DNA of 42,448 nucleotides from an uncultured delta proteobacterium (GTDB lineage Bacteria; Myxococcota_A; Polyangia; Haliangiales; Haliangiaceae), in assembly GCA_900696455.1 (NCBI GenBank), contig CAADGB010000208.1, positions 1-42,448 on the forward strand, read 5' to 3'. The stretch's first letter is position 1; every line of letters begins with the position of its first letter. The translations under genes were made by a program, and so were the position numbers. Shown in pieces: positions 35,666 through 37,453 of the stretch. The notes under the pieces were generated by a model. The model was not told the DNA's origin, did no database searches, and saw only the letters and a list, made by a program, of their open reading frames with translations.

Positions 35666-37453
35666 TCAGCCCACCTGCAGGCCGTCGAACGCGACCACGC
35701 TGTCGTTGCCGAGCCCGGCCGCGTTGGCCTCGTCGGTGTCGACGTGGAGGTCGAGCGCGTACTCGGGGTGGACGCGGACGATCACGTCGCCCATGGTCAT
35801 CTCGCGATCGCCCTCGATCCGGACCTTGATCACGTCGCGATCGCCGACCCCGAAGCTGCGGGCGTCGTCGGGGTGCATGTGGACGTGGCGGTGGGCCAGG
35901 ATCACGCCGTGCTCGATCGCGACCTGGCCGTGGGGGCCGCGCAGGGTCAGGCCGGGGGTGCCGGCGAGCTTGCCGCTCTCGCGCAGCGGCGGATCGACGC
36001 CGAGGCGGAGCGCGTCCGTGCGCGCGAGCTCGACCTGGGTCTCCTTGCGCAGCGGGTTGATGATCGCGACGCCGGTGATCTCGCCGCGTGGGCCGATCAG
36101 GTCGACGGTCTCGCGGGTCACGTACTGCCCGGGCTGGGTGACGTCGCGGCGGCGGGCCAGCTCGTAGCCGGGGCCGAACAGCGCGTCGCAGGCGGCCCGC
36201 GACAGGTGGACGTGACGGACCGAGACCCCGACCGGGATCGGGCGCGAGCGCACGCTGCGCACCGCCGCGGTCGGCCCCACCAGGCAGCGCACGACCTCGC
36301 GCGCGATCATGCGCTCCTCGTCGGTGCGCACCACCAGCACCCGGGTCCGGGCGTGGCGCTCGGCGACGTCGACCACGCCACCCTCGTCGGCGGCGCGCGC
36401 CGTGGCGTTGCGCTCGCGGTCGAGCGCCACCCCCATGAACCCGAGCGGCGCGCACACCCGCTCGCGCACCAGCGCCGAGTTCTCGCCGATGCCGCCGGTG
36501 AAGACCAGGGCGTCGACGCCGCCGAGGTGGGCGGCGTAGGCGCCGACGTACTTGCGGACGCGGTGGACGAACAGGTCGACGGCGAGGCGCGCCCGCACGT
36601 CGCCGCGCTCGGCGGCGGCCTGGACGTCGCGGAAGTCGGGGCCGATGCCGGACACCCCCGCCAGCCCCGAGCGCCGGTTGAGCAGCTCGTCGAGCTGCGC
36701 GGCGGTCTGGCCTTCGCGGGCGAGGAGCAGCGGGATCGCCGGATCGAGGTCGCCGGCGCGCGTCGCCATCAGGAGGCCCTCCAGCGGCGTCATGCCCATC
36801 GAGGGCTCGACCGAGATCCCGCCGTCGATCGCGGTGACGCTGGCGCCGCCGCCGAGGTGGCAGGTGACCAGGCGCATGCGGGCGGCGGCGACGCCGAGGT
36901 GCTCGGCCGCGCACGCCGCCATGTACTGGTGGCTGGGGCCGTGGAAGCCGTAGCGGCGGATGCCGTGCTTCGCGTACAGCTCGTAGGGCAGGCCGTAGAG
37001 GAAGGCGTGCTCCGGCATCTGGGCATGGAAGGCGGTGTCGAAGACCGCCACCTGCGGCACGTCGAACAGCGCGCGGGCCGCGCGGATGCCGGCGAGGTGG
37101 GACGGGTTGTGCAGCGGCGCGAACACCGCGTGCTCCTCGATGACCGCCTCGACCGCGGCGTCGACGCGGACCGGCTGCACCAGCCGCTCGCCGCCGTGGA
37201 CGACGCGGTGGCCGACGGCGCCGAGGCTGGCGTGGGCCAGCGGACCGCCGGCGCGCGACAGGTGGGCGAGGACCGCGGTGAGCGCGCCGCCGATGTCGGG
37301 CGCGCTGACCGGGACGCTGCCGGCGCCGTTGACGTGGATCGCGCCGTCGCCGATGCGCTCGACCCGGCCGCGGGCGAGGCTCGCCTCGGTGTCCATCTCG
37401 TAGAGGTCGTACTTGAGCGAGGTCGAGCCGGCGTTGAGGACGAGCACCTTCAT
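35666..37453 (-). CDS. ackA: Acetate/propionate kinase fused to PduL-type phosphotransacylase
   Basis: The protein has 595 residues. Residues 1-~395 are a full acetate kinase: N7 (VLNAGSTSLKYDL), GHRVVHGGE (R83), FDTAFH (D139), YGFHGPSH (H171), MATRAGDLDP (R232), FTGGIGENS and RTDEERMIARE, all matching known catalytic residues. Residues ~404-595 are a PduL domain with zinc-type motifs SVRHVHLS (H414, H416) and AHRHVHMHPDD (H521-H525), plus LHVDTDEANAAG. PduL converts acyl-CoA and Pi to acyl-phosphate; AckA makes ATP from it. One chain would join both steps. There is no frameshift between them. TACGAT at 37462-37467 is 8 nt before the ATG. Confidence 0.92.
   Translation of the reverse strand: MKVLVLNAGSTSLKYDLYEMDTEASLARGRVERIGDGAIHVNGAGSVPVSAPDIGGALTAVLAHLSRAGGPLAHASLGAVGHRVVHGGERLVQPVRVDAAVEAVIEEHAVFAPLHNPSHLAGIRAARALFDVPQVAVFDTAFHAQMPEHAFLYGLPYELYAKHGIRRYGFHGPSHQYMAACAAEHLGVAAARMRLVTCHLGGGASVTAIDGGISVEPSMGMTPLEGLLMATRAGDLDPAIPLLLAREGQTAAQLDELLNRRSGLAGVSGIGPDFRDVQAAAERGDVRARLAVDLFVHRVRKYVGAYAAHLGGVDALVFTGGIGENSALVRERVCAPLGFMGVALDRERNATARAADEGGVVDVAERHARTRVLVVRTDEERMIAREVVRCLVGPTAAVRSVRSRPIPVGVSVRHVHLSRAACDALFGPGYELARRRDVTQPGQYVTRETVDLIGPRGEITGVAIINPLRKETQVELARTDALRLGVDPPLRESGKLAGTPGLTLRGPHGQVAIEHGVILAHRHVHMHPDDARSFGVGDRDVIKVRIEGDREMTMGDVIVRVHPEYALDLHVDTDEANAAGLGNDSVVAFDGLQVG

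Follow-up and report, generated by a model that had tools for sequence, protein, structure and literature searches.

A widespread acetate kinase-PduL fusion in Myxococcota as a probable phosphotransacylase-acetate kinase pathway in one protein

Whether an entire phosphotransacylase-acetate kinase pathway can be carried by a single polypeptide, and whether such a polypeptide would operate in the cytosol or at a bacterial microcompartment, are questions raised by one gene in the window (i.e., the whole stretch of 42,448 nucleotides that was analysed). An initial annotation had described an uninterrupted 595-codon frame joining acetate kinase (AckA) to the phosphotransacylase PduL, and that frame was borne out; it is a single open frame on the minus strand (35666-37453), encodes 595 aa, opens with ATG, and contains no internal stop. 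It is a solitary gene that converges on a protein-L-isoaspartate O-methyltransferase (PIMT) gene; the latter lies outside the system and is next to the fused gene in close relatives as well (L018, L022/L037, and L015/L068). The features are as follows.

35666..37453, minus strand: AckA-PduL fusion gene, 595 aa plus stop
36299..37450, minus strand: acetate kinase domain (residues 2-385, PF00871), the sole acetate kinase of the genome
36242..36277, minus strand: linker (residues 393-404), predicted flexible, 12 residues throughout the window clade
35711..36235, minus strand: PduL phosphotransacylase domain (residues 407-581, PF06130), the sole PduL of the genome
34974..35642, plus strand: PIMT, the convergent neighbour

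Elsewhere in the window, a tandem repeat is located at about 42082-42300, close to the window end, where the frames read as 12-letter protein strings.

A domain search, proposed as a check in the initial annotation, recovered PF00871 and PF06130 as the only Pfam domains of the 595-aa protein, both at full length and well over cutoff. PF00871 spans residues 2-385 (profile positions 1-392 of 392; 419 bits against a cutoff of 22; E 1.5e-125), and PF06130 spans residues 407-581 (profile positions 1-175 of 176; 237 bits against a cutoff of 25; E 1.9e-70). In NCBIfam, the protein scores 414 bits against TIGR00016 (ackA; cutoff 293) and 243 bits against NF011652 (phosphate propanoyltransferase; cutoff 209). 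The AckA residues were checked by alignment with the Methanosarcina thermophila acetate kinase across 75 fused and 29 single kinases; the equivalents of N7, R91, H123, D148, H180, R241, and E384, which have catalytic roles in the M. thermophila enzyme, are invariant throughout (75/75 and 29/29). The earlier statement that all AckA catalytic motifs are present holds for these residues, but the position of M. thermophila Asn211 is occupied by Gly (motif HLGGG, 36845-36859, minus strand), a deviation particular to the window clade and present in most of its members; this Gly is shared by 32 of the 75 fusions and by none of the 29 single kinases. The replacement could alter nucleotide or phosphate handling by AckA.

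The PduL domain proved as complete as had been described, with both His-x-His zinc motifs (residues 414/416 and 523/525). Relative to the reference Rhodopseudomonas palustris structure, all six zinc ligands are kept (H414, H416, E475, H523, H525, and H570), as are the phosphate-contacting Arg103 and Ser127 (here R469 and S493) and the equivalents of Gln74 and Gln77. Roles for these residues (the zinc ligands, Arg103, Ser127, and Gln77) are taken from the R. palustris PduL work, in which Gln77 is tied to acetyl-/propionyl-CoA systems and is represented by Tyr or Phe in lactyl-CoA-type systems (PMC4784909). Gln443 of the fusion is of the acetyl/propionyl type, and from this residue we infer a probable acetyl/propionyl substrate range. 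As judged from sequence, the proposal of two complete enzymes in one chain is supported, and both are probably active.

An AlphaFold2 model built from 48 fused sequences (mean pLDDT 88.8, pTM 0.67) presents two confident domains and a poorly predicted linker, with pLDDT <50 at residues 399-402; at this pTM, the placement of AckA relative to PduL is unsure, and the arrangement of the active sites is not readable from the model. By Foldseek, the AckA part matches 1g99 (TM 0.93 by target length) and the PduL part matches 5cuo (TM 0.97 by target, rmsd 0.7, 49% identity). Throughout the window clade the linker comprises 12 residues; sequences of the sister clade almost all have 14, and the remaining fusions 7-12. 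The linker sequence is variable (31-38% identity against L020/L052).

The rarity implied by the initial annotation was not upheld, as its suggested search for other proteins with both domains returned many of them. PduL is present in 113 of 379 evenly drawn Myxococcota genomes, and in at least 87 of those 113 it is immediately adjoined by AckA and lies in an open frame of at least 542 aa; within this phylum, PduL normally occurs in fused form. The fusion extends to roughly ten other phyla: besides Myxococcota, a genome-contig scan located full-length fused frames in Aminicenantes, Chloroflexota, Hydrogenedentes, Elusimicrobiota, Verrucomicrobiota, Planctomycetota, Fibrobacterota, Bacteroidota (one MAG), Desulfobacteraceae, and Pseudomonadota. 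Named carriers include Verrucomicrobium, Chthoniobacter flavus, Haloferula, and Pararhodobacter, and plasmids of Polaromonas and Paracoccus bear the fusion, annotated merely as an acetate/propionate family kinase. The AckA tree is compatible with a single fused clade (AU p 0.76), and fused PduL forms one clade with a support of 89, a value obtained with fission and frameshift rows left out and with deep branches poorly resolved. These sequences are compatible with one ancient fusion origin and some later splits; multiple origins are not needed to account for them.

Among relatives, G026 encodes a PduL preceded by an AckA N-terminal remnant of ~32 residues (E 3e-4; L027/L138) and a divergent AckA on another contig, an arrangement that amounts to a natural partial deletion of the kinase; the fusion is therefore not obligatory. 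The pathway itself is dispensable, given that two congeners (G003 and G006, 96-99% complete) possess neither AckA nor PduL. In another congener, the frame of the fused gene (L015 and L068) is broken inside AckA at about residues 226-278, which is either an assembly error or the mark of a decaying gene. On Sinorhizobium plasmids (L130 and L131), the fused gene is split within PduL into a 554-aa frame and an 86-aa frame, the latter annotated as PduL/EutD family.

The window's genome has no AckA or PduL besides the fusion, which therefore probably represents a single-chain Pta-AckA pathway. A second, stand-alone Pta was considered and rejected, the sole PF01515 protein of the genome being a malic enzyme that carries Pta as its C-terminal domain; phosphoketolase was likewise ruled out as an acetyl-phosphate source, as PF03894 was sought in the genome and is absent. 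AMP-forming AcsA is present. Genomic context elsewhere bears on the same role. In Polaromonas, fabI and a DUF3141 gene flank the plasmid-borne fusion, with DUF2933, isoprenylcysteine-methyltransferase, and metal-ATPase genes nearby. The corresponding place on a Halomonas plasmid, amid similar neighbours, is taken by an acetate kinase gene and a separate MaoC-Pta gene; a similar cluster occurs in Sphingobium. This swap suggests that the fusion replaces AckA and Pta, and thus supports a phosphotransacylase-plus-kinase role.

We regard it as highly probable that the protein is a bifunctional cytosolic enzyme, a single chain of which accomplishes both steps of the phosphotransacylase-acetate kinase pathway. 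Its C-terminal, di-zinc PduL would convert acetyl- or propionyl-CoA and Pi to acyl phosphate and CoA, and the N-terminal AckA would transfer the phosphoryl group from acyl phosphate to ADP, yielding ATP and acetate or propionate (in sum, acyl-CoA + Pi + ADP = acid + CoA + ATP). Being reversible, the reaction could be used for overflow and ATP gain or, alongside the AMP-forming AcsA, for acetate uptake at low affinity. The benefit of fusion would lie in fixed stoichiometry and in proximity via a short flexible tether, rather than in a closed tunnel; we infer both activities, the physiological direction, and this benefit.

Several other readings of the locus can be weighed against this cytosolic, bifunctional enzyme. 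The window's genome is fragmented (554 contigs), as would suit an assembly or frame artefact joining two adjacent genes, but the same fused frame with its 12-residue linker recurs in independent assemblies of relatives, and fused frames are found in single-contig genomes (G062, G137, G199, and G225) as well as in the annotated plasmids; with the fusion shared by so many assemblies, the artefact reading was rejected and its probability is negligible. That one domain is catalytically dead and regulates the other is highly improbable: the replacement of Asn211 by Gly in the window clade could be read in this way, but the remaining catalytic residues are all kept, and dN/dS against congeners is alike in both domains (~0.23-0.28), indicative of purifying selection. 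A greater chance, although still a small one, attaches to the fusion being the phosphotransacylase and kinase of an ethanolamine-type microcompartment, located at or in the shell. The claim that the enzyme functions outside any microcompartment could be retained only in part; the absence of shell genes beside the fusion in the window agrees with what was seen, and the fusion is linked to shell genes neither genomically nor phylogenetically, but the genome does hold microcompartment genes elsewhere. While the fusion resides on contig C208, contig C423 (L117:11529-14272) encodes BMC-T, BMC-H, BMC-P, and an EutE-type aldehyde dehydrogenase, and contig C355 (L118:3282-6225) encodes EutB and EutL. 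No phosphotransacylase was found beside these genes on C423 and C355, and the fusion is the genome's only PduL, both of which favour a compartment role. Across 56 relatives, however, of which 47 have shell genes, fusion and shell genes are distributed independently (22 with both, 3 with the fusion only, 25 with shell genes only, and 6 with neither; Fisher p 0.72), so that co-occurrence fails as an explanation; the fusion is similarly unassociated with EutB (Fisher p 0.57). Three relatives (G008, G042, and G050) carry the fusion without shell genes, and the AckA- and PduL-free congeners G003 and G006 carry shell genes and EutB. For about 6 kb around, the flanks of all fused loci examined are free of shell genes, matches to such genes having come from the single-domain loci L010 and L116, and where PduL is shell-linked it is a separate protein (G055:C508 and G049:C26). 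An N-terminal encapsulation peptide is also absent, as the chain begins with the AckA sequence MKVLVLNAGS and PduL is preceded only by the 12-residue linker. The independent distribution, the lack of shell neighbours, and the separateness of shell-linked PduL together favour a cytosolic enzyme over a compartment role; that the fusion additionally serves the ethanolamine compartment retains a minority chance.

A related matter is whether acyl phosphate is handed from one active site to the other without first mixing with the cytosolic pool, as in true substrate channelling. This possibility was advanced by Erbilgin et al. for such multidomain proteins (Erbilgin et al., 2016; PMC4784909). The short linker of clade-wise conserved length speaks for it, as does the compatibility of the fusion with a single ancient origin maintained across phyla. 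On the other hand, the model predicts no fixed geometry, the linker sequence has drifted, and fission has occurred in relatives; moreover, at neutral pH acetyl phosphate is fairly stable, such that proximity alone suffices. Channelling is hence unlikely: with a flexible linker and unsure domain placement, tethering or co-expression explains the data equally well.

Members of the sister clade bear an extra N-terminal domain of the cyclic-nucleotide-binding type (PF00027), giving a cNMP-AckA-PduL architecture in frames of about 760-860 aa; this is the most unusual side observation of the survey. It occurs at loci L055-L067, L069-L073, L075-L079, L083-L085, and L092 (e.g., L056:5494-7812), and within Myxococcota at L003-L005, L007, and L009. 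In the stretch corresponding to the phosphate-binding Arg-Ser of CRP, the PF00027 domain mostly reads GEMSLMTGxxTxADV and is devoid of Arg, which renders its ligand uncertain. In the literature searched, no paper was found that brings together a cyclic nucleotide, acetate kinase, and PduL or phosphotransacetylase. A bolder conception, to which we assign only a slim likelihood, is that the fusion may constitute a self-contained ADP-forming acyl-CoA synthetase that keeps acyl phosphate from the cytosol and thereby uncouples ATP gain from acetyl-phosphate signalling, with the cyclic-nucleotide-type domain of the sister clade gating it.

The fusion can be set beside several known systems. It shares overall chemistry and an acetate kinase of the same family with the separate Pta-AckA pathway (e.g., of E. 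coli), which differs in employing two proteins and a Pta of unrelated fold. With the PduL/EutD and PduW proteins of microcompartments it has in common the PduL family and an AckA-family kinase, although the microcompartment PduL is a separate protein with an encapsulation peptide, encoded in a shell operon. The archaeal ADP-forming acetyl-CoA synthetase (ACD) likewise achieves the same overall reaction in one enzyme system; it does so, however, with unrelated domains and mechanism, the fusion consisting of just PF00871 and PF06130. The nearest precedent is the report that the PduL signature extends to multidomain proteins, most of which carry an acetate kinase annotation and which lack encapsulation peptides; fusion was suggested there to possibly facilitate substrate channelling (Erbilgin et al., 2016; PMC4784909). 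The AckA-PduL fusion was thus already described in 2016, with the same two domains, the same annotation, and the same channelling idea; the passage on these proteins gives neither organisms nor details of architecture, and the present analysis adds domain order, linker, Myxococcota distribution, genome context, and the sister cNMP-AckA-PduL architecture. No report of an assay of any AckA-PduL fusion was found in the literature searched.

In many Myxococcota, the main acetyl-CoA/acetate/ATP switch would reside in one protein, labelled in databases only as an acetate/propionate family kinase, and across a whole phylum PduL is normally found apart from microcompartments. With two predicted activities in one chain, the protein also offers an easy test case for whether, in bacteria rich in two-component systems, the fusion of AckA to a phosphotransacylase lowers free acetyl phosphate, which acts as a phosphodonor and an acetylating agent.
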